The notes under the pieces were generated by a model that made no database searches, had not been told where the DNA came from, and saw only the letters and a list, made by a program, of their open reading frames with translations. Shown piece after piece: positions 5,850 to 58,929 of a stretch of DNA of 64,000 bases. How positions within the stretch are numbered: the stretch's first letter is position 1; the number at the start of each line of letters is the position of its first letter. This DNA is from Oscillospiraceae bacterium (GTDB lineage: Bacteria > Bacillota > Clostridia > Oscillospirales > SIG627): assembly GCA_015064635.1 (NCBI GenBank), contig SVRV01000006.1, positions 31,494 through 95,493 of the forward strand. The letters run 5' to 3'. The position numbers were made by a program, and so were the translations under genes.

Positions 5850-5985
5850 GTGCGGAACGAAAGAACCGTTCACCGAGGGGACTCTGGAGAATCTCATTTA
5901 TTTGAGTGCCGAAGGTGCAAGGTGAAATACCGAATCTCTCAGGCAAAAGGATAGAGTAAAAGCATAAACACTTTTTTGTGTTATG
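5850..5985 (+). ncRNA. Glycine riboswitch (apparently one canonical aptamer, ~5874-5957, plus flanking hairpins)
   Basis: GAGGGGACTCTGGAGAATCTC...GTGCCGAAGGTGCAAGG...AATCTCTCAGGCAAAAGGATAGAG matches the glycine aptamer consensus; sits upstream of an AGCS transporter. Confidence 0.88.
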
Positions 5986-6044: not shown

Positions 6045-7463
6045 ATGGAAGAAAAACTTTTAGGTATTGTGGCGAAAGCCAATTCCTTTCTTGCGGATTA
6101 TATTCTTATAATCCTTTTGGTAGGAACAGGCTTGTTCTTCACATTCAAAACAAAATTTGTACAGATTCGTTGTTTTGGCGAAGGTATGAAAAAGGTGTTT
6201 GGGAACATAAAGTTATCCGGTGGTAAACAGTCCGGAGGACTCAGCTCCTTCCAGGCACTTGCAACAGCTATTGCAGCTCAGGTAGGTACCGGTAATATCG
6301 TTGGTGCTTCGGGTGCTATTCTTGTTGGTGGTCCCGGTGCGATTTTCTGGATGTGGGTAATCGCATTTCTTGGAATGGCAACTATTTACGCAGAGGCAAC
6401 TCTTGCTCAGGAAACACGTGAAGTGGATGCGAACGGTGAGGTACACGGCGGTCCTGTTTACTACATGAAGAAGGCATTCAAAGGCGGATTTGGCAAATTC
6501 CTTGCTGTATTCTTCTCAATAGCAACAATTCTTGCTCTCGGCTTTATGGGTACCATGGTTCAGTCAAATTCAATTGCTGAATCTTGTAACACTGCTTTCG
6601 GTGTTCCCGGTTGGGTAGTAGGTCTTATCCTTGCAATTGTTTCCGCATTTATTTTCCTTGGCGGTATTCAGAGAATTGCTTCGGTTACAGAGAAGCTTGT
6701 TCCGATAATGGCATGTATATTCCTTCTTGGCGGTTTTGCAGTGCTTGCCGTTAACATTAAGTATGTGCCCACAACCTTCGGACTCATATTCAAATATGCT
6801 TTCACTCCCGATGCTCTTATCGGCGGTGGAATCGGTTATGCGCTTAAAACAGCAATCAGCCAGGGTGCAAAAAGAGGACTTTTCTCCAACGAAGCAGGTA
6901 TGGGTTCAACTCCTCATGCACATGCTCAGGCTAAGGTTGAAAAACCCCACGACCAGGGTGTAGTTGCCATGGTTGGTGTGTTTATTGACACATTTGTTGT
7001 ACTTACTGTGACTGCTCTTGTTGTAATTACTATGCTTTATGCAAAAGACGGTGCTGTCCTCAACGGACTTACAGAGGATGCGTATATTTCCGCAACTTCC
7101 GGTGATGCGGCAATTGTATCCAAAACAAGTGCAATGCAGATGGCGATAGGTTCCGCATTTGGAACAAACTTCGGTAATATCTTTGTAGCTATTTGTTTGC
7201 TTTTCTTTGCATATTCCACTGTTATCGGATGGAACTTCTTTGGTAAAGTAAATGTTCAATATCTTTTCAAGAATTCAAAGATTGCAGTTGCTGTTTACTC
7301 AATAATCGCAATAGTGTTTATTTTCCTTGGTACTCTCGTTTCTAATAATCTTGTTTGGGAAATGACCGACTTCTTTAACTACCTGATGGTTCTTCCTAAC
7401 GTTATAGCACTTATAGCACTTTGGAAGATAGTTGTAAAAAACTCAAAGAGCAATAAGAAATAA
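6045..7463 (+). CDS. Sodium:alanine/glycine symporter (AGCS family, AlsT-like)
   Basis: AGCS hallmarks QVGTGNIVGASGAI..GGPGAIFWMWV and SQGAKRGLFSNEAGMGSTPHAHA; AGGAGG RBS. Confidence 0.93.
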   Translation: MEEKLLGIVAKANSFLADYILIILLVGTGLFFTFKTKFVQIRCFGEGMKKVFGNIKLSGGKQSGGLSSFQALATAIAAQVGTGNIVGASGAILVGGPGAIFWMWVIAFLGMATIYAEATLAQETREVDANGEVHGGPVYYMKKAFKGGFGKFLAVFFSIATILALGFMGTMVQSNSIAESCNTAFGVPGWVVGLILAIVSAFIFLGGIQRIASVTEKLVPIMACIFLLGGFAVLAVNIKYVPTTFGLIFKYAFTPDALIGGGIGYALKTAISQGAKRGLFSNEAGMGSTPHAHAQAKVEKPHDQGVVAMVGVFIDTFVVLTVTALVVITMLYAKDGAVLNGLTEDAYISATSGDAAIVSKTSAMQMAIGSAFGTNFGNIFVAICLLFFAYSTVIGWNFFGKVNVQYLFKNSKIAVAVYSIIAIVFIFLGTLVSNNLVWEMTDFFNYLMVLPNVIALIALWKIVVKNSKSNKK

Positions 7464-22896: not shown

Positions 22897-22897
22897 C

Positions 22898-23066
22898 AAC
22901 TAAATCCGTCTTTGCAGACGGAATAAATCAATCTTCGATTGATGATATCTGCTACGCAGATGAAATCGCCTGCGGCGAATTAAAGACGGATTTAATTTCA
23001 TCGAAGCCGCAAGGCTTTGATTTCATCCAAACTTGTTTGGATTTCATCGTGCTGTGCACGATTTCA
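22898..23066 (+). repeat. Multi-hairpin structured repeat, copy 1 (downstream of tRNA-Tyr)
   Basis: AACTAAATCCGTCTTT ... AAAGACGGATTTAATTTCATC..., chain of ATC-stem-loop-GAT hairpins; second copy (inverted) at 58648-58812. Confidence 0.85.
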
Positions 23067-35125: not shown

Positions 35126-36187
35126 TTAAAGCTTGTATGTCCAGTTGAACTTGTCCTCAATCTTGCCCCACTGAATACCTGTAAGAGTATCATAGAGGTG
35201 CTGAGTAACTTCACCAATCTTGCCTTCGTTGATAATGAACTTCTTACCCTTGTAGGAGAGCTCGCCGATAGGAGATACAACTGCCGCTGTACCTGTACCC
35301 CAAGCCTCTTCAAGAGTACCGTTTTCAAGAGCCTCAGCAAGCTCATCAACGCTGAGAAGTCTCTCACTTACCTTGTAGCCTTCTGACTTGAGAACTTCGA
35401 TACAAGACTTTCTTGTAATACCGGGAAGGATAGAGCCTGAAAGCATAGGTGTAACAATTTCGCCGTTGATCTTGAACATAACGTTCATAGCGCCAACTTC
35501 TTCGATATATTTTCTTTCAACACCGTCAAGCCAAAGAACCTGAGCATATCCTTGAGATTCAGCCTTCTGACCTGCTCTGTTACTTGCCGCATAGTTACCG
35601 CCGCACTTGGTGTAACCTGTACCGCCTCTTACGGCTCTTACGTCGTCAGCTTCAATCATGATCTTAACAGGGTTGATACCTTCCTTGTAGTAGCTTCCTA
35701 CAGGAGAGAGAATAATCATGAAGGTTGCGTTGTGAACTGCGTGAACACCGAGAGTCTCGTCGTTTCCGAAAAGGAAGGGACGGATATAAAGTGATGTTCC
35801 GGGGGCTGAGGGAGTCCAGTCCTTTTCAAAGTCAACGAACTTTGTGAGAACTTCAAGAGCAAGGTCCTCGGGAATTTCAGGAAGACAGAGACGCTCTGCG
35901 GAGCTGTTCAAACGGCGGATGTTTTCCATGGGTCTGAAAAGCTGAACCGATCCGTCGGCTGTGCGATACGCCTTGAGACCTTCGAAGATTTCCGAACCGT
36001 AGTGAAGAACAGTTGATGCGGGATGAATAGGGAAGGGACCGAAGGGAACGATTCTTGCATCATGCCAGCCCTTTTCCTGAGAATAATCCATAATGAACAT
36101 ATGGTCGGTGAATACCTTACCAAAGCCAAGTGTTGAGCTGTCGGGCTTTGCCTTGAGCTCTGCTGCGCGAGTGATTGAAATTTCCAT
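35126..36187 (-). CDS. ilvE: Branched-chain amino acid aminotransferase
   Basis: GYTKCGGNYAASNRAGQKAESQGYAQVLWLDGVERKYIEEVGAMNVMF; FEGLKAYR. Confidence 0.94.
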   Translation of the reverse strand: MEISITRAAELKAKPDSSTLGFGKVFTDHMFIMDYSQEKGWHDARIVPFGPFPIHPASTVLHYGSEIFEGLKAYRTADGSVQLFRPMENIRRLNSSAERLCLPEIPEDLALEVLTKFVDFEKDWTPSAPGTSLYIRPFLFGNDETLGVHAVHNATFMIILSPVGSYYKEGINPVKIMIEADDVRAVRGGTGYTKCGGNYAASNRAGQKAESQGYAQVLWLDGVERKYIEEVGAMNVMFKINGEIVTPMLSGSILPGITRKSCIEVLKSEGYKVSERLLSVDELAEALENGTLEEAWGTGTAAVVSPIGELSYKGKKFIINEGKIGEVTQHLYDTLTGIQWGKIEDKFNWTYKL

Positions 36188-36203: not shown

Positions 36204-36734
36204 TTAATAATCGCGTCCGAGTTTCATTGCGTTAAGGTTTACGTCAAGCATATCTGCACGCTTTGCGGAAATAACCTTCTTGAGTGCTGCAACTACACCT
36301 TCATCGGTGAATTCGCCGGTTTCGCCAAGTACCTTGCCCATGATTATCATGTTTGCAAGTGTGGGAGTACCGTTTTCGTCTGCAAGCTTTGTTGCAGGAA
36401 TGGGAAATACCTTTACATCGTCTCTTTTAACTTCTCTTTCGATGAGAGATGAATCGTAGAATATCATACCGCCTGCCTTAACGGTGTTTTCGTACTTGTC
36501 AAGGGAGGGAAGATTCATTGCGATGAGAATATCGGGGTTTGATACGATGGGTGAGCCAACGGGAGTTTCGCTGATAATAACAGAACAGCTTGCTGTACCG
36601 CCTCTCATTTCGGGACCGTATGAGGGAAGCCATGATACCTGCTTGTCCTCTGTCAGACCTTTATATGCAAGAAGCTTACCTGCAAAAAGGATACCCTGAC
36701 CGCCGAAACCTGCAAAAACATACTGATGTGCCAT
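36204..36734 (-). CDS. 2-oxoacid:ferredoxin oxidoreductase, gamma subunit (VorC/KorC-like)
   Basis: [36 protein letters not shown]. Confidence 0.9.
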
Positions 36735-37495
36735 TATTTATCCCCCTTTACAATTCCCGCTGTTCTATCCTTATATACACCGAGAGGATAGTAGGGGATC
36801 ATTTTTTCTTCAACCCATTCAAGTGCCTTCTGAGGAGTCATACCCCAGTTTGTAGGACAGCTTGAAACAACTTCGATAAGAGAAAATCCCTTATTGTTTA
36901 TCTGGTTTTCAAAAGCTTTCTTGATAGCCTTCTTGGCAGCCTTAACGTTCTTTACGTTGTTTACGGCAACTCTTTCGAGGTATTCGGGACCGTCAAGTTC
37001 GGAAAGCATTTCGCAAACCTTGATGGGGAAACCGCAATGAGCGGTGTCTCTTCCGTAGGGAGATGTCTGCGTTACCTGACCGGGAAGGGAGGTGGGAGCC
37101 ATCTGACCGCCTGTCATACCGTAAATAGCATTATTTACGAAAATAACGGTTATGTTTTCGTTACGTGCCGCAGCGTGAACTGTTTCAGCCATACCGATTG
37201 AGGCAAGGTCGCCGTCACCCTGATATGTAAATACAATGTGATTTTCGGGGTCAGCACGCTTAACACCCGTAGCAATAGCGGGAGCACGTCCGTGAGCCGC
37301 TTCAATCATATCACAGTTAAAATAATTATATGCCATAACCGAGCAACCAACGGGTGCGATACCGATGGTTCTTCCTTCAATACCAAGCTCGTCAAGACAC
37401 TCAGCTACAAGACGGTGAATAATACCGTGTGTACAGCCGGGGCAGTAGTGCATGGGAAGGTCGGCAAGTGCATGGGGTTTATCAAATACTACCAT
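36734..37495 (-). CDS. 2-oxoacid:ferredoxin oxidoreductase, beta (TPP) subunit (VorA/KorB-like)
   Basis: YCPGCTHGIIHRL; HGRAPAIATGVKRADPENHIVFTYQGDGDLASIG (GDGD TPP motif). Confidence 0.9.
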   Translation of the reverse strand: MVVFDKPHALADLPMHYCPGCTHGIIHRLVAECLDELGIEGRTIGIAPVGCSVMAYNYFNCDMIEAAHGRAPAIATGVKRADPENHIVFTYQGDGDLASIGMAETVHAAARNENITVIFVNNAIYGMTGGQMAPTSLPGQVTQTSPYGRDTAHCGFPIKVCEMLSELDGPEYLERVAVNNVKNVKAAKKAIKKAFENQINNKGFSLIEVVSSCPTNWGMTPQKALEWVEEKMIPYYPLGVYKDRTAGIVKGDK

Positions 37496-38562
37496 TATTT
37501 TGCACCTCCGTTTTTGTGAGCTGTTTTTATTGCTTCAAGAATCTGTTCGGGTGTGGGAATCATACCGCCTGCACGGTTTACGAGAGTTACAGGACGGCGG
37601 CACTCTGTTGCAAGACGAACGTCCTCTATCATCTGTCCCATTGAAAGCTCAACGGAAATAAATGAATGTACCTTTTCGGTAGCCTTGAGGAAGGGAGCCT
37701 TGGGGAAGGGCCAGAGTGTGATGGGACGGATAAGTCCTACCTTTATACCCTGCGCACGTGCTTCTACGATAGCATTTTTTGCTACACGGGAAGCGATACC
37801 GAATGCTGCAATACAAATTTCAGCATCCTCCATCATATATTCCTCATACATAACTTCGTTCTTTTCGATTTCGGCATAACGCTCGAATCTCTTGAAGTTG
37901 AGCTGTTCAAGTTCTTCGGGAACGAGAGAGAGTGAGTTTGTAATGTTGTGGAAACGTTCAAGCTTTGTTCCGACAGTTGCCCAAGGCTTTTCGGGCATGG
38001 GCTTTACTTCAAGGTCAAGGGATACAGGCTCCATCATCTGACCCATTGTACCGTCGGCAAGAATCATGGATGTTACACGGTACTTGTCTGCTACGTCAAA
38101 GCCGTGAACTGTGAGGTCTGCCATTTCCTGAACGGAAGCGGGAGCGAAAACAACCATATGGAAGTCACCGTGTGCACCGCCCTTTGTTGCCTGGAAATAA
38201 TCTGACTGTGAGGGCTGAATACCACCGAGACCGGGGCCGCCTCTCTGTACGTTAACTACAAGTGCGGGAAGGTCTGCACCTGCAAGGTAAGAAAGTCCTT
38301 CACCCTTAAGTGAGATTCCGGGGCTTGAAGAGGAAGTCATAACACGCTTACCGCATGAAGCAACGCCGTATACCATATTGATAGCGGCAATTTCACTTTC
38401 TGCCTGAAGGAAGCAACCGCCGATTTTAGGCATTCTTTTAGCCATGTAAGCGGCAATTTCAGTTTGGGGAGTAATGGGATAACCGAAGTAATGGCGACAG
38501 CCTGCAACGATAGCGGCTTCAGCAATGGCTTCGTTACCCTTCATCAATACTTTATCTGCCAT
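37495..38562 (-). CDS. vorB: 2-oxoacid:ferredoxin oxidoreductase, alpha subunit (VorB-like)
   Basis: GYPITPQTEIAAYMAKRMPKIGG; TSSSSPGISLKGEGLSYLAGADLPALVVNVQRGGPGLGGIQPSQSDYFQATKGG. Confidence 0.9.
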   Translation of the reverse strand: MADKVLMKGNEAIAEAAIVAGCRHYFGYPITPQTEIAAYMAKRMPKIGGCFLQAESEIAAINMVYGVASCGKRVMTSSSSPGISLKGEGLSYLAGADLPALVVNVQRGGPGLGGIQPSQSDYFQATKGGAHGDFHMVVFAPASVQEMADLTVHGFDVADKYRVTSMILADGTMGQMMEPVSLDLEVKPMPEKPWATVGTKLERFHNITNSLSLVPEELEQLNFKRFERYAEIEKNEVMYEEYMMEDAEICIAAFGIASRVAKNAIVEARAQGIKVGLIRPITLWPFPKAPFLKATEKVHSFISVELSMGQMIEDVRLATECRRPVTLVNRAGGMIPTPEQILEAIKTAHKNGGAK

Positions 38563-38577
38563 TTTTTCACGACCTTT

Positions 38578-38784
38578 CTATTTCTCAATCTTGATTATAC
38601 AGTCGGGACACATAGTAGCACAGAAGGTGCAACCGATACAAGCATCCTCTTTCACCGCTTCAACAGGGTGATGACCTTTTTTGTTGATTTTTTCTTTTGC
38701 AATTGCAAGTACGCCCTTGGGACAAGCATCAACGCAAAGTCCACAGCCCTTACAATTGTCTGTTTTAAAAGTAAGTTTTGGCAT
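38578..38784 (-). CDS. 2x[4Fe-4S] ferredoxin subunit of the oxidoreductase (VorD/KorD-like)
   Basis: CKGCGLCVDACP and CIGCTFCATMCPD. Confidence 0.92.
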   Translation of the reverse strand: MPKLTFKTDNCKGCGLCVDACPKGVLAIAKEKINKKGHHPVEAVKEDACIGCTFCATMCPDCIIKIEK

Positions 38785-38796
38785 TTTTTACACTCC

Positions 38797-39459
38797 TTAC
38801 ATTATTTTGTTTTGAAGTTTTAATGGGAATAGATTTGGTATTTTATTTTCAAGGGAGGGAAATATCTTCGAGTGAACCGAGGTCATAACGAGGGGAATTC
38901 CCGCTTTTTCACTCAGTTCATTTGCTTTTTCAAGTGACGATAAAACAATCTCGGGTGTTGTTTCTTCTCCGATGTTTGAGTTGTTTATGATACCCGTAAA
39001 AGGTATTTTTCCTGCCCATTCAATTTCGCGCATTACCTCAAGTGCCGAATCGGCATCCGGGGTAAGAGGACGGCAGGCATTAAAGACGAAAAGCATTTCG
39101 TAATTGTTTTCCTCTTTTATTTGCGATGCATATCTTCCAAGCACCAATGCACCTCTTTCATCTCCTCCTATGTCAAGTATGGCGTGAGACGATTTATCAT
39201 CGGTCAGTGCATACATTTCCTGAGGAAGTGACGGTAAGTCAACGTTTGAGCCTGCAAAGGCGGAAGCAATAAGCTTTATACCCGCTTCTTCAAACTCCTT
39301 TTGACTGTCCTTGGTACGGAAGTAGGGGTTTACTATATCCATGTCGGCAACAACTACGTTATCGGTAAGCTTTTTCAGTTCAAAAGCCATGTTTACGGCG
39401 ATGTTTGTCTTACCGCTTCCGTAATGTCCCGAAAGGAGGGTTATTCTTTTGTATTTCAT
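38797..39459 (-). CDS. MinD/ParA-like P-loop ATPase
   Basis: LLSGHYGSGKTNIAVNMAFELKK; DMDIVNPYFRTKD; ILDIGGDERGA. Confidence 0.82.
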   Translation of the reverse strand: MKYKRITLLSGHYGSGKTNIAVNMAFELKKLTDNVVVADMDIVNPYFRTKDSQKEFEEAGIKLIASAFAGSNVDLPSLPQEMYALTDDKSSHAILDIGGDERGALVLGRYASQIKEENNYEMLFVFNACRPLTPDADSALEVMREIEWAGKIPFTGIINNSNIGEETTPEIVLSSLEKANELSEKAGIPLVMTSVHSKIFPSLENKIPNLFPLKLQNKIM

Positions 39460-41741
39460 TATAATTTGTTCCTTTGTATCTTGCCGCTGACGGTCTTGGG
39501 AAGAGAATCCTTAAATACTACAATTCTGGGATACTTGTAAGGAGCCGTTCTGCTCTTAACGTAATCCTGAATCTCTTTCTTGAGTGCGTCGGTGGGTTCG
39601 GTTCCCTTGACAAGCACGATACTTGCCTTAACAACCTGACCTCTCACCTCATCGGGTGCCGCAGAAACGCCACATTCGAGAACGTAAGGAAGTTCCATGA
39701 TAACGCTTTCGATTTCGAATGGACCGATACGGTATCCGGATGACTTGATAACGTCATCAACACGGCTGACATACCAGAAGAATCCGTCCTCGTCACGCCA
39801 AGCAACGTCGCCGGTGTGATAGTAACCGTCATGCCATACCTCACGGGTCTTTTCTTCGTTGAGGTAGTATCCGGTAAAGAGTCCGCAGGGAGCACCGTTC
39901 TTGACGTTAACACAGATTTCTCCGTTTTCACCGTCCTTAACGGGATTTCCGTCCGCATCAAGGAGCTCGACATCATATATAGGTGCGGGTTTACCCATTG
40001 AACCTACCTTGTGAGATGTTCCAACAAGGTTGCCTATTATCATAGTGCTTTCTGTTTGACCGAAGCCCTCAAGTATCTGAAGACCGGTGAGTTTTTCAAA
40101 CTGATTGTAAACCTCGGGATTAAGTGCTTCTCCCGCTGTTGTCATATGCTTGACTGACGAAAGGTCATATTTTGAAATATCTTCCTTAATCATCATACGA
40201 AGCATTGTGGGGGGAGCACAGAAGGTTGTTATGTGATATTTTGCAAACATTGGCAGAATATCCGAAGCATCGAAACGATCGAAGTCATAAACGAAGGTTG
40301 CCGCCTCACATACCCACTGACCGTAGAATTTACCCCACATGGATTTTGCCCATCCGGTGTCCGAAATTGTGAAGTGAAGTCCGTTGGGGTCAACCGTGTG
40401 CCAATATTTAGCTGTATGGAAATGACCGAGTGCATATTTGCAGGAGTGTGCCGCAATCTTGGGATATCCTGTTGTACCCGATGTAAAGAACATAAGCATA
40501 AGGTCATCTCCGCAGGGAGATTCTTCCGTTCTGTTGAAGTGTGTGGAGAAGAGGGCACGCTCTTCGTCAAAATTACGCCATCCGTCTCTGTCACGTCCAA
40601 CAATTATCTTTGTCTGAACTGTGGGAGACTTTTCTATGGCAAGCTCTACCTGGTGAGCTGTGTCACCGTCCGCAGTACAGATAACGGTTGAAATGCCCGC
40701 CGCATTAAAGCGGTATTCGAAATCGTGCTCCTGAAGCTGGTTTGTTGCAAGAATTGCAATGGCACCAAGCTTGTGAAGACCGAGCATCGCTATCCAGAAC
40801 TGATAATGACGCTTGAGAACCAGCATTACTCTGTCACCCTTTTTGATACCAAGTGACTTAAAGTAGTTTGCCGCCTGAGCGGAATACTTCTTCATATCCT
40901 TGAAGGTGAAGCGACGTTCTGTCTTGTTCACATCGATGTGAAGCATAGCAAGCTTATCGGGTTTCTTGTCCGCAATAGCATCAACAATGTCAAAAGCAAA
41001 GTTGAACTTGTCTGTGTTTTTAAATGTAATTGATGTGGGAGTTCCGTTTTCATCTTCAACAGTATCAATGAAGTTACGGTATACTCTGTCCTCAGTATCA
41101 CGGGGGATCTGTCTTTCGGTTGTGACAGTGGGATGGGGAAGGAGCTCGGGAATTGATTCTCCGGTGGGATTAAGAACTATTGCGTAGAAAAGACAATCTC
41201 TGTCATTTACCGCAATCATTCCGTGTGGCTCCGAGCTGTTATAATAAATACTGTCGCCGGGGCCGAGTACCTCGGTATGCTCTCCCACCTGAACCTTAAG
41301 GTGACCTTCTATGATAATGTCACATTCTTGTCCTGCGTGTGTGGTGAGTTCAATATCGTCAGCCTTGTCTTTGTAGGTAGCTCTTACATACAGCGGCTCA
41401 GCTATTCTGTTTTTGAACTCGGAGGCAAGGCTGTAATACGTCATGCCGTGTGCCTGCTCAATTTTCTGACCGAGACCGTTTCTTGTTACAGTGTAGGTTT
41501 TAAGCTTAGGGCTGTGTCCCTCGATGATATCGGTTACGTCTACGTTAAGCGCAAGAGCACATCTGTAGATAAAAGCAAAGGCAAGGTCACTGTTACCGTT
41601 TTCACAGTTTATGTATTCATCAACAGATACATCTGTTTTCTTTGCCATATCTTCAACCGAGATACCCATGATTTCACGCAATTCGCGTATTCGTCCTGCC
41701 ATTTCCTTGATTTTAAAATCAAGACCTGTAATTTGTTGCAT
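39459..41741 (-). CDS. HTH(XRE)-cupin-AMP-dependent acyl-CoA synthetase fusion, paralog 1
   Basis: N-term IRELREIMGISVEDMAKKTDVSVDEYINCENG HTH; cupin ECDIIIEGHLKVQVGEHTEVLGPGDSIYYNSSEPHGM; AMP-binding MFFTSGTTGYPKIAAHS; C-term PKTVSGKIQRNKL. GGAGG RBS supports start at 41741. Confidence 0.9.
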   Translation of the reverse strand: MQQITGLDFKIKEMAGRIRELREIMGISVEDMAKKTDVSVDEYINCENGNSDLAFAFIYRCALALNVDVTDIIEGHSPKLKTYTVTRNGLGQKIEQAHGMTYYSLASEFKNRIAEPLYVRATYKDKADDIELTTHAGQECDIIIEGHLKVQVGEHTEVLGPGDSIYYNSSEPHGMIAVNDRDCLFYAIVLNPTGESIPELLPHPTVTTERQIPRDTEDRVYRNFIDTVEDENGTPTSITFKNTDKFNFAFDIVDAIADKKPDKLAMLHIDVNKTERRFTFKDMKKYSAQAANYFKSLGIKKGDRVMLVLKRHYQFWIAMLGLHKLGAIAILATNQLQEHDFEYRFNAAGISTVICTADGDTAHQVELAIEKSPTVQTKIIVGRDRDGWRNFDEERALFSTHFNRTEESPCGDDLMLMFFTSGTTGYPKIAAHSCKYALGHFHTAKYWHTVDPNGLHFTISDTGWAKSMWGKFYGQWVCEAATFVYDFDRFDASDILPMFAKYHITTFCAPPTMLRMMIKEDISKYDLSSVKHMTTAGEALNPEVYNQFEKLTGLQILEGFGQTESTMIIGNLVGTSHKVGSMGKPAPIYDVELLDADGNPVKDGENGEICVNVKNGAPCGLFTGYYLNEEKTREVWHDGYYHTGDVAWRDEDGFFWYVSRVDDVIKSSGYRIGPFEIESVIMELPYVLECGVSAAPDEVRGQVVKASIVLVKGTEPTDALKKEIQDYVKSRTAPYKYPRIVVFKDSLPKTVSGKIQRNKL

Positions 41742-41763: not shown

Positions 41764-42045
41764 TAAAAGCTCGTCCCAAAGATATGATCCTTGAGACGAG
41801 CATAATAAACAACGCCCGCGGTACCACTCAAGTTGCGGACTCGCCGCCTCTCTTGGAATCAATCAATTCCTATGCATTTACGCAGCAATCACGGAGAGGG
41901 TCTACTCACAAATGCTTTCTTCCTCTCGGCTCGGAAGCTACAAATACCGATATCTATCTGCGACTCTCACCAAACGTCGCTTCTCTTTGCATAAATAATT
42001 CGGTATACTCTTCGTCAAAGCCTTTCCTTGAATATAAGAAGTATA
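41764..42045 (-). ncRNA. T-box leader (probable Val specifier GTA at 41939-41941)
   Basis: Minus-strand T-box GAGTGGTACCGCGGGCG, terminator GCTCGTCTCAAGGATCATATCTTTGGGACGAGCTTTT, stem I with AGTA loop-E motif and GGTG apical element. Confidence 0.88.
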
Positions 42046-42082
42046 TCACATCATTTGAGCTTTGTCAATATTTTTTTAAAAA

Positions 42083-44347
42083 TTACAGTTTATTTCTTTG
42101 AATTTTGCCGCTTATTGTCTTGGGAAGCTCATCACGGAACACTACAATTCTGGGATACTTGTAAGGAGCTGTGTGTTTTTTTACATAATCTTGGATTTCT
42201 TTCTTGAGCTCTTCTGTGGGCTCGGTTCCCTTGACAAGTACGATACTTGCCTTAACAACCTGACCTCTTACCTCGTCGGGAGCGGCAGATACACCGCATT
42301 CAAGAACGTAGGGAAGCTCCATGATTACACTTTCTATTTCAAACGGACCGATACGGTAGCCGGATGACTTGATAACGTCGTCTGTTCTGCCCACATACCA
42401 GAAGAATCCGTCCTCATCGCGCCATGCAACATCTCCTGTATGATAATAGCCGTCGTGAAGAACTTCGTCTGTCTTTTCTTGGTTTCCGTAATATCCAAGG
42501 AAGAGACCGCAAGGAACCTTATCACTTACCTTAACACAGATTTCACCGTTTTCACCGTTAGGTACGGGATTTCCGTCGGGGTCGAGAATCTGTACGTCAT
42601 AAAGCGGAACGGGACGTCCCATTGAGCCTACCTTGTGATCCTGACCTACAAGGTTTGCGATAGCAAGAGTGAGCTCGGTCTGACCAAAGCCTTCCATTAT
42701 CTGAAGACCTGTGAGCTTTTCAAATTGATAGTATACCTCGGGATTAAGCGCTTCACCTGCAGTTGTCATATGCTTAACTGATGAGAGATCATATTTTGAG
42801 ATATCCTCTTTTATCATCATACGAAGCATTGTGGGAGGTGCACAGAAGGTCTTGATTCCGTATTTTGCAAACATTGGAAGAATTTCCGATGCATCAAATT
42901 TGTCGAAATCGTATGTGAATACCGCGCCCTCGCACAGCCATTGACCGTAGAGCTTACCCCAGAGAGCCTTACCCCAACCGGTATCGGATATGGTGAAATG
43001 AAGTCCGTCGGGCTCTACCATATGCCAATATTTTGCTGTGGGGTAGTGACCGAGTGCATATTTGTAGGAATGAGCCGCTATCTTGGGATATCCTGTTGTG
43101 CCCGATGTAAAGAACATGAGCATCATATCGTTACCGCAAGCGGTTTCTTCTGTTCTGTAGTAGTGAGTTGAGAAGAGAGCGTATTCTTCGTCAAAGTCGT
43201 GCCAACCGTCACGCTTACCGCCCACAAGTATTTTTGTCTTGAGAGTGGGACTTGAGCTTTGTGCAAGGTCAACCTGCTCTGCTATCTGTCCGTCTGCACT
43301 GCAAACAATCGCCGAAACTCCTGCGGCATTGAAACGGTAATCGAAATCATGTGCCACAAGAAGATTTGTTGCGGGAATAGCAACCGCTCCGAGCTTATGA
43401 AGCGCAAGTATCGAGAACCAGAACTGATAATGACGCTTGAGCACCAGCATTACTCTGTCGCCCTTCTTGATGCCGAGGGATTTAAAGTAGTTTGCCGCCT
43501 GCGCTGAATGACGCTTCATATCGTTGAAGGTGAACTTTCTTTCAACCTTATTCTTGTCAATGTGAATCATTGCAAGCTTTGCGGGGTCTTTCTTTGCGAT
43601 GGCATCAACTACATCAAAAGCAAAATTGAATTTATCTTCGTTTTCAAAATCAATGGAAACAAGCGACCCGTTTTCGTCTTCAACACATTTGATGAACTTC
43701 TCACTTACCAAGCCTGCCTTTGCAGTGGAGGCAGTGATGGTCTTTCTTACGGTGGTTTCCTCTGTTGCCTCGCCCGGAAGTACCACAGCTACGAAGAGAC
43801 ATTCCTTACCGTCAACAGCAATCATACCGTGAGGCTCTGAGCTGTTGTAATAGATACTGTCGCCCTCACTGAGATATTCAATGTTGTCGCCAACCTGAAT
43901 TTTAAGTCTGCCGCTTACAACGTAATCGAATTCCTGACCTGAGTGAGTTGTAAGATTTATAGGCTTGTCCTGAAGCTCTGCATCATATTCATATTTTACC
44001 CAATAGGGCTCAGCAATTTTGTCCTTGAACTTGGGCGCAAGACTTTGAATCTGGATTCCGTTTTCTTTGGCTGTGTCCTGACCTTCTCCCTTACGTGTAA
44101 TTGTATAAGAACGGAGGTTTGCACTCTTTCCCTCGAGAATATCTGTTATTTCTATATCAAATACCAATGAGCACTTATGTATGAAAGAGAAGGGGAAATC
44201 TGCATTTCCTGCTTCATATTCGAGATAATTTTCGACAGAAACTTCTGTCTTTTCTGCCATTTCTTCAATGCTGATTCCTTCTATTTCACGCATTTCACGA
44301 ATTCGGCGCGCTACCTCCAGAAGTTTTGTTTTTGAAGTTGTTGACAT
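42083..44347 (-). CDS. HTH(XRE)-cupin-AMP-dependent acyl-CoA synthetase fusion, paralog 2
   Basis: Same architecture as 39459-41741; GGAGG RBS before ATG at 44347. Confidence 0.9.
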   Translation of the reverse strand: MSTTSKTKLLEVARRIREMREIEGISIEEMAEKTEVSVENYLEYEAGNADFPFSFIHKCSLVFDIEITDILEGKSANLRSYTITRKGEGQDTAKENGIQIQSLAPKFKDKIAEPYWVKYEYDAELQDKPINLTTHSGQEFDYVVSGRLKIQVGDNIEYLSEGDSIYYNSSEPHGMIAVDGKECLFVAVVLPGEATEETTVRKTITASTAKAGLVSEKFIKCVEDENGSLVSIDFENEDKFNFAFDVVDAIAKKDPAKLAMIHIDKNKVERKFTFNDMKRHSAQAANYFKSLGIKKGDRVMLVLKRHYQFWFSILALHKLGAVAIPATNLLVAHDFDYRFNAAGVSAIVCSADGQIAEQVDLAQSSSPTLKTKILVGGKRDGWHDFDEEYALFSTHYYRTEETACGNDMMLMFFTSGTTGYPKIAAHSYKYALGHYPTAKYWHMVEPDGLHFTISDTGWGKALWGKLYGQWLCEGAVFTYDFDKFDASEILPMFAKYGIKTFCAPPTMLRMMIKEDISKYDLSSVKHMTTAGEALNPEVYYQFEKLTGLQIMEGFGQTELTLAIANLVGQDHKVGSMGRPVPLYDVQILDPDGNPVPNGENGEICVKVSDKVPCGLFLGYYGNQEKTDEVLHDGYYHTGDVAWRDEDGFFWYVGRTDDVIKSSGYRIGPFEIESVIMELPYVLECGVSAAPDEVRGQVVKASIVLVKGTEPTEELKKEIQDYVKKHTAPYKYPRIVVFRDELPKTISGKIQRNKL

Positions 44348-44373
44348 TTTCTGTTCCTCCTTAGAAAAATATA

Positions 44374-44640
44374 AAACCCGTCTCAAAGATTTTTCTTTGA
44401 GACGGGTGAAATTAACTCATCCGCGGTACCACTCAAATTGCAGGAGACCTGCCACTCTTGGAATCAATCAATTCCTATGCATTTACGCAGCAATCACGGG
44501 AACACTTACTTGAGAACTTTCAGCATTCCGGCTCGGAAGTGATAGGATACTTTGTCGATTAGTTACTGACTCGCACCAAACGTCAGCTCTCTGGAAACAA
44601 CCTTCAAAACCGTCTTCGTCACAGCCTTTAAATATTTCGG
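44374..44640 (-). ncRNA. T-box leader (probable Ile specifier ATC at 44541-44543)
   Basis: Minus-strand TTTGAGTGGTACCGCGG, terminator ACCCGTCTCAAAGAAAAATCTTTGAGACGGGTTTT. Confidence 0.88.
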
Positions 44641-44693
44641 TGAATACACTATATCACTGTTTTTTGATTTTGTCAATAGTTTTTTTGAAAAAA

Positions 44694-58853: not shown

Positions 58854-58929
58854 TGGTGGGGACTACAGGGCTCGAACCTGTGACCCTCTGCTTGTAAGGC
58901 AGATGCTCTCCCAGCTGAGCTAAACCCCC
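58854..58929 (-). tRNA. tRNA-Val(TAC), with encoded CCA
   Basis: Minus strand GGGGGTTTAGCTCAGCTGGGAGAGCATCTGCCTTACAAGCAGAGGGTCACAGGTTCGAGCCCTGTAGTCCCCACCA; loop CTTACAA. Confidence 0.96.

Follow-up and report, generated by a model that had tools for sequence, protein, structure and literature searches.

That bacteria of the rumen and hindgut require or use branched volatile fatty acids for making isoleucine, valine and leucine has been known since the 1960s. The conversions of 2-methylbutyrate to isoleucine and of isobutyrate to valine are classical routes in rumen bacteria (PMC7356843 and references there). The work of Allison, Robinson and others on the reductive carboxylation of these acids (cited in PMC7356843) was biochemical, whereas the locus described here, with the same pairs of acid and amino acid, offers candidate genes together with regulation specific to each amino acid. 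Both 2-methylbutyrate and isobutyrate are substrates of MbcS from Staphylococcus aureus, whose role is branched-chain fatty acid synthesis (PMC10026030). MacsMa of Methanosarcina acetivorans prefers 2-methylbutyrate (PMC10455477). In T-box leaders, the specifier lies 2-4 bases before the end of the bulge according to the rule used in TBDB, where AUC makes up 99% of the Ile specifiers (PMC7778990). The open literature searched contained no account of acyl-CoA synthetases under T-box control; the surveys of Vitreschak et al. and Gutierrez-Preciado et al. (2008, 2009) were outside the scope of that search.

The DNA analysed, here called the window, is a stretch of 64,000 nucleotides from the draft genome of a gut bacterium of the Oscillospiraceae. 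It carries two paralogous acyl-CoA synthetases, A and B, each behind a T-box leader (Table 1). Their substrates are likely those of MbcS. However, MbcS is a single promiscuous enzyme without an HTH-cupin part that feeds lipid synthesis, while A and B are HTH-cupin paralogs.

Table 1. Features of the synthetase locus, with window coordinates
Feature	Position	Strand	Basis
Promoter of leader A, sigma-70-type, TTGACA-17-TATAGT, TG-extended	44648..44676	-
Ile T-box leader A, approximate transcription start to end of terminator tail	44365..44640	-	RF00230; Stem I covariation
Specifier AUC (Ile), then A	44541..44543	-	invariant, 81/81 parsed orthologous leaders
44-nt identity with leader B, covering Stem II (3' part), the IIA/B region and Stem III	44455..44498	-
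T-box sequence AGUGGUACCGCG with UGGU bulge	44422..44433	-	RF00230 match; leader alignment
Intrinsic terminator of leader A, 14-bp stem and U tail	44365..44406	-
Acyl-CoA synthetase A: XRE HTH + cupin + AMP-binding, 754 aa, pocket Gly459	42083..44347	-
Promoter of leader B, TTGACA-17-TATACT	42040..42068	-
Val T-box leader B	41765..42030	-	RF00230, 85.4 bits, E 2e-18
Specifier GUA (Val), then G	41939..41941	-	GTA 64 + GTC 1, n=65 parsed leaders
Acyl-CoA synthetase B: XRE HTH + cupin + AMP-binding, 760 aa, pocket Ala465	39459..41741	-
P-loop NTPase, CobQ/MinD type	38797..39459	-
2-oxoacid:ferredoxin oxidoreductase delta subunit, 2x[4Fe-4S]	38578..38784	-
Alpha subunit, VorB-type (3-methyl-2-oxobutanoate dehydrogenase VorB)	37495..38562	-	NF005507
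Oxidoreductase beta subunit, TPP-binding	36734..37495	-
Oxidoreductase gamma subunit	36204..36734	-
Branched-chain aminotransferase IlvE	35126..36187	-	NF009897, TIGR01123 over cut-off
tRNA-Val(UAC)	58854-58929

T-box leaders of the two synthetases

Leader A is confirmed as a member of the T-box family RF00230. The Rfam covariance model matches it at 44395-44631 on the minus strand with 96.8 bits, against a gathering score of 93 (E 5e-20). It shares with the RF00230 class of full Stem I and transcription terminator the kink region, the apical AG-bulge/GGUG motifs, Stem II, IIA/B, Stem III, the UGGU T-box, the terminator and an AUC specifier. The T-box sequence AGUGGUACCGCG is invariant in the aligned leaders, and the UGGN bulge of the antiterminator is accompanied by a competing 14-bp terminator (z -3.7). 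Direct pair counting against the known T-box Stem I showed that the Stem I helices of A-type leaders covary, with 97.4% of cells paired and nine pairs with double changes (0/500 shuffles). An RNAalifold fold of leader A alone was set aside, its long-range pairs being partly wrong. The range given in the preliminary description, 44374-44640, covers the leader; the terminator extends to 44365, and the coding ATG is at 44347. The best reading of leader A is a transcription-terminating T-box that would respond to uncharged tRNA-Ile.

Leader B matches the same model at 41789-42027 on the minus strand, at a score under the gathering score but with an E value of 2e-18 in a local search. Each leader is preceded by its own TTGACA-17-TATA(G/C)T promoter and ends in a strong terminator, and a Shine-Dalgarno sequence precedes each start codon (ATG 44347 for synthetase A, ATG 41741 for synthetase B).

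The specifiers stand in a common register, codon-N-CTTCC-GAGC. Once the leaders are aligned on CTTCCGAGCC, they read ATC-A in A and GTA-G in B, just as first described. The Ile specifier holds on rigorous alignment and follows its paralog across species. To the window we added 80 related Clostridia loci, a few of which are near-duplicates, so that the counts are not all independent: AUC is read in 81/81 A-type leaders and a Val codon in 65/65 B-type leaders, where the single GUC is a synonymous change. Among 27 diverse orthologous A leaders, whose mean column identity is 66%, the ATC columns never vary, whereas the base after them can be A, C or G; this excludes chance for the AUC specifier. 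Its position in leader A also agrees with the TBDB rule. Orthologous A/B pairs without a recognisable T-box exist (L078, L081, L088, L089 and L090), and the A and B genes nearly overlap in some of them.

The acyl pocket

The nearest solved homologue is MacsMa (PDB 3ETC; phmmer E 1e-183). Meng et al. reportedly described its pocket in 2010 as Trp237, Trp254, Lys256, Trp259, Cys298 and Gly351. Trp259 and the residue numbering agree with a later account (PMC10455477). Synthetases A and B belong to the same fold family and, in the alignment to 3ETC, are identical at all six positions, but unlike MacsMa they have an additional N-terminal HTH-cupin module. An AlphaFold model of synthetase A was rejected in favour of this alignment (mean pLDDT 62.5 from a 14-row alignment, with pocket residues 455-461 below 50).

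The sole completely fixed difference between the paralogs in the catalytic domain is Gly459 (88/88 A-type) versus Ala465 (64/64 B-type). The site aligns between MacsMa pocket residues 254 and 256; A shares Gly255 with MacsMa, whereas B has Ala there. Gly is also found in 7/7 synthetases of the C type, a third paralog discussed below. The second most discriminating catalytic-domain position, Leu versus Met/Ala, adjoins Trp259, and both positions lie at most three residues from pocket residues (2/2, p 0.004). The extra methyl group that Ala may bring into the pocket of B fits the smaller acid, isobutyrate. Strongly discriminating positions number 31/249 in the N-terminus versus 7/518 in the catalytic part. 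This greater divergence of the N-terminus suggests that the HTH-cupin module has probably specialised too.

It had been proposed from the two tRNA specificities that the enzymes prefer different acids, 2-methylbutyrate for A and isobutyrate for B. The Gly/Ala difference in the acyl pocket, together with the rest of an acid-to-amino-acid route in the operon, supports different preferences indirectly; they may not be exclusive, given that the related MbcS takes either acid (PMC10026030). One can imagine that A and B both take 2-methylbutyrate and isobutyrate, as MbcS does, and that the two T-boxes serve only to raise this common activity when one or the other amino acid runs short; Wels et al. 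argued likewise for transporters of BCAA that are controlled by amino-acid-specific T-boxes (PMC2494555). The identity of all six reported pocket residues would suit such sharing. However, the pocket segment holds a Gly/Ala difference that is fixed and follows the specifier, and the two most discriminating positions crowd around the pocket, so we consider shared activity possible but the less likely case. Different preferences remain the reading adopted here.

In two loci with a synthetase beside a separate HTH-cupin frame (L130, L133), Leu occupies the Gly/Ala position (TGWLK), as if this site, with Leu, Gly or Ala, tuned acid size. In distant relatives (L129, L131 and others), stop codons separate the HTH-cupin part from the synthetase, from which the fusion seems to have arisen from neighbouring genes.

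A putative route from branched acids to isoleucine and valine

Synthetase B is followed, with no real gaps, by genes for the P-loop protein, the delta, alpha, beta and gamma subunits of the oxidoreductase and IlvE, an order kept in relatives. All four oxidoreductase subunits are encoded. VorB scores 534.6 bits with NF005507, against a cut-off of 399, and the beta, gamma and delta subunits adjoin it, each under its own curated cut-off. IlvE exceeds the cut-offs of both NF009897 (481.6 vs 307 bits) and TIGR01123 (402.5 vs 250 bits).

Neither ilvC nor ilvD was detected in the window's genome, and both were detected in all 14 control genomes; as the genome is a draft of about 90% completeness, the two genes may lie in sequence that the assembly lacks. 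In a comparison of 147 genomes of the order, ilvC occurs in 9 of the 51 with the fused synthetase and in 67 of the 96 others (p about 1e-9, with no correction for kinship). The fusion and ilvC thus tend towards mutual exclusion, with few genomes carrying both. A search for leuC returned an aconitase-like open frame under the cut-off as its sole match. Judging from its gene content, the bacterium appears unable to make branched amino acids de novo.

From the T-boxes, the specifiers, their conservation, the gene order, the apparent absence of ilvC and ilvD and the Gly/Ala difference fixed in the pocket, we infer the tRNA response, the direction of the pathway and the acid preferences as follows. 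In isoleucine shortage, the AUC specifier would pair with the anticodon of tRNA-Ile, whose free acceptor end would pair with the UGGU bulge. Binding of the uncharged tRNA would let the antiterminator form, and synthetase A would be made and activate 2-methylbutyrate. The VOR-type 2-oxoacid:ferredoxin oxidoreductase would then convert the activated acid by reductive carboxylation to 3-methyl-2-oxopentanoate, which IlvE would aminate to isoleucine. Synthetase B, under the Val T-box and presumably co-transcribed with the oxidoreductase and IlvE genes, would lead isobutyrate to valine by the same route. Because the oxidoreductase stands only behind the Val T-box, isoleucine shortage alone would not obviously raise it. 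We consider it quite probable that the locus serves T-box-controlled synthesis of isoleucine and valine from 2-methylbutyrate and isobutyrate by reductive carboxylation. Most of the loci compared come from ruminant and other herbivore gut metagenomes. The locus would supply candidate genes for the whole branched-acid route along with its likely control, one T-box per amino acid.

The synthetases might instead supply branched acyl-CoA starters for membrane lipids rather than amino acids. MbcS (NF047394), with its role in branched-chain fatty acid synthesis (PMC10026030), is the closest named NCBIfam model for both, but the scores of 434.7 bits (A) and 430.0 bits (B) miss its equivalog cut-off of 850. 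Regulation through T-boxes for Ile and Val suits amino acid synthesis, as do the neighbouring oxidoreductase and IlvE genes, and a lipid role is unlikely. A catabolic cluster, in which BCAA-derived 2-oxoacids would be oxidised to branched acids, is less likely still. VOR enzymes are reversible, as is well known from amino acid fermentation, but the ATP-consuming, AMP-forming synthetase and the predicted induction on amino acid shortage indicate synthesis, and ilvC and ilvD were not found in the genome.

Among the tRNAs found in the draft contigs, tRNA-Ile is absent; its gene probably sits in unassembled rRNA operons. The window does hold a gene for tRNA-Val(UAC). Elsewhere in the genome, a Leu T-box reading CUC (L003) lies upstream of a LeuA-like protein (G000:C16; L104 4915-8788, minus strand). 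Leu T-boxes with a LeuA-like protein also occur at L040 17513, L041 1827, L044 3760 and L056 3684, the last reading CUG. The second gene after the Leu T-box encodes a xylose-isomerase-barrel/acyl-CoA synthetase fusion in the window's genome, L041 and L044. In many relatives the Leu T-box locus adjoins the Ile/Val cluster, suggesting a third, leucine branch.

A compact specifier loop in the isoleucine leaders

The canonical loop-E motif (AGUA/GAA) is not found in the specifier loop of A-type leaders in the alignment of 27. A three-pair GGN/N'CC helix lies directly above the specifier and a GAAG/CUUC stem directly below, leaving a loop of 5' AC opposite 3' YAUCN. The N-N' pair appears as U-A, C-G, A-U, G-C and U-G and is formed in 26/27 sequences; leader A of the window has a U-U mismatch there. 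In B-type leaders the 5' strand (AGNNC) has stayed longer, and the 3' side reads UUUGUAG in most of them. A-type leaders thus differ from the RF00230 class in the compact loop, in the GGN/N'CC helix that replaces the loop-E motif, in tolerating C after the specifier, and in regulating an acyl-CoA synthetase. As the loop-E motif is common but not needed for detection, leader A is kept in the family and filed as a variant.

With so unusual a loop, and with C after the codon in 30/81 A leaders where a purine is usual, the true specifier could be sought in another frame (e.g. UAU, UCA or CAU), leaving leader A without Ile specificity, but this is extremely improbable, given that the AUC columns alone are invariant between variable neighbours on both sides, that the loop is bounded by the GAAG/CUUC stem and the covarying helix, and that AUC recurs in the leader of the older paralog C.

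Probable duplication, specifier switch and recombination

The window's genome has a third HTH-cupin synthetase paralog (G000:C33; L105 3351-5651, minus strand), whose own T-box (L006) reads AUC-A. A tree built from 131 synthetases places the B clade (support 100) as sister to the A clade (97), with this C-type paralog branching before the A/B split. Older branches, the third paralog included, carry AUC leaders too; the Ile specifier is therefore likely ancestral and the Val specifier derived, by one amino acid switch. A duplication followed by specifier change, as the preliminary description had it, is supported by the gene tree, but the change belongs to leader B and not to the Ile leader. 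A 'GTA' label on the A gene of L085 in this tree is a script artefact; that gene is truncated by the contig start.

The 44-nt identity between the leaders is real (44455-44498 equals 41850-41893, and the longest shared run is 45 nt). Its interpretation as a trace of the duplication fails, however: it combines the T-box core, which is conserved, with a segment of Stem III that was homogenised later. In a sliding comparison over 49 genomes, the excess similarity of A and B within a genome (+0.11 to +0.19) is confined to leader positions ~141-180, which comprise the Stem III hairpin and the next hairpin, with a highly conserved block on either side. Over this segment the A and B leaders of a genome resemble each other more (0.63-0.70) than A leaders do between species (0.52-0.66). 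No such excess is seen in Stem I or the terminator in these 49 genomes, and a whole-segment permutation for within-genome A-B leader similarity gave 0/2000. The simplest explanation is repeated gene conversion, which would have homogenised Stem III and spared the part that sets specificity. On one contig, JAFUKG010000032.1, the cluster is present twice in opposite orientation and apparently identical (L012, L013), either a recent duplication or an assembly error.

We lean, with some reserve, towards a wider picture in which T-boxes divide the scavenging of branched acids among paralogs. AUC/Gly and GUA/Ala would be matched pairs in which the codon reports the enzyme's acid, the Ile leaders would form a conserved subtype whose specifier loop is compact and lacks loop E, and recombination would keep Stem III alike and Stem I specificity apart. 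The T-box codon would then become a prediction of enzyme substrate, testable by a single residue swap.

Two other RNA elements were found in the window. A Gut-1 RNA lies at 22897-22971 on the plus strand (60.3 bits), just past tRNA-Thr and tRNA-Tyr. A glycine riboswitch aptamer at 5874-5964 on the plus strand (62.2 bits) lies upstream of the open frame 6045-7463.
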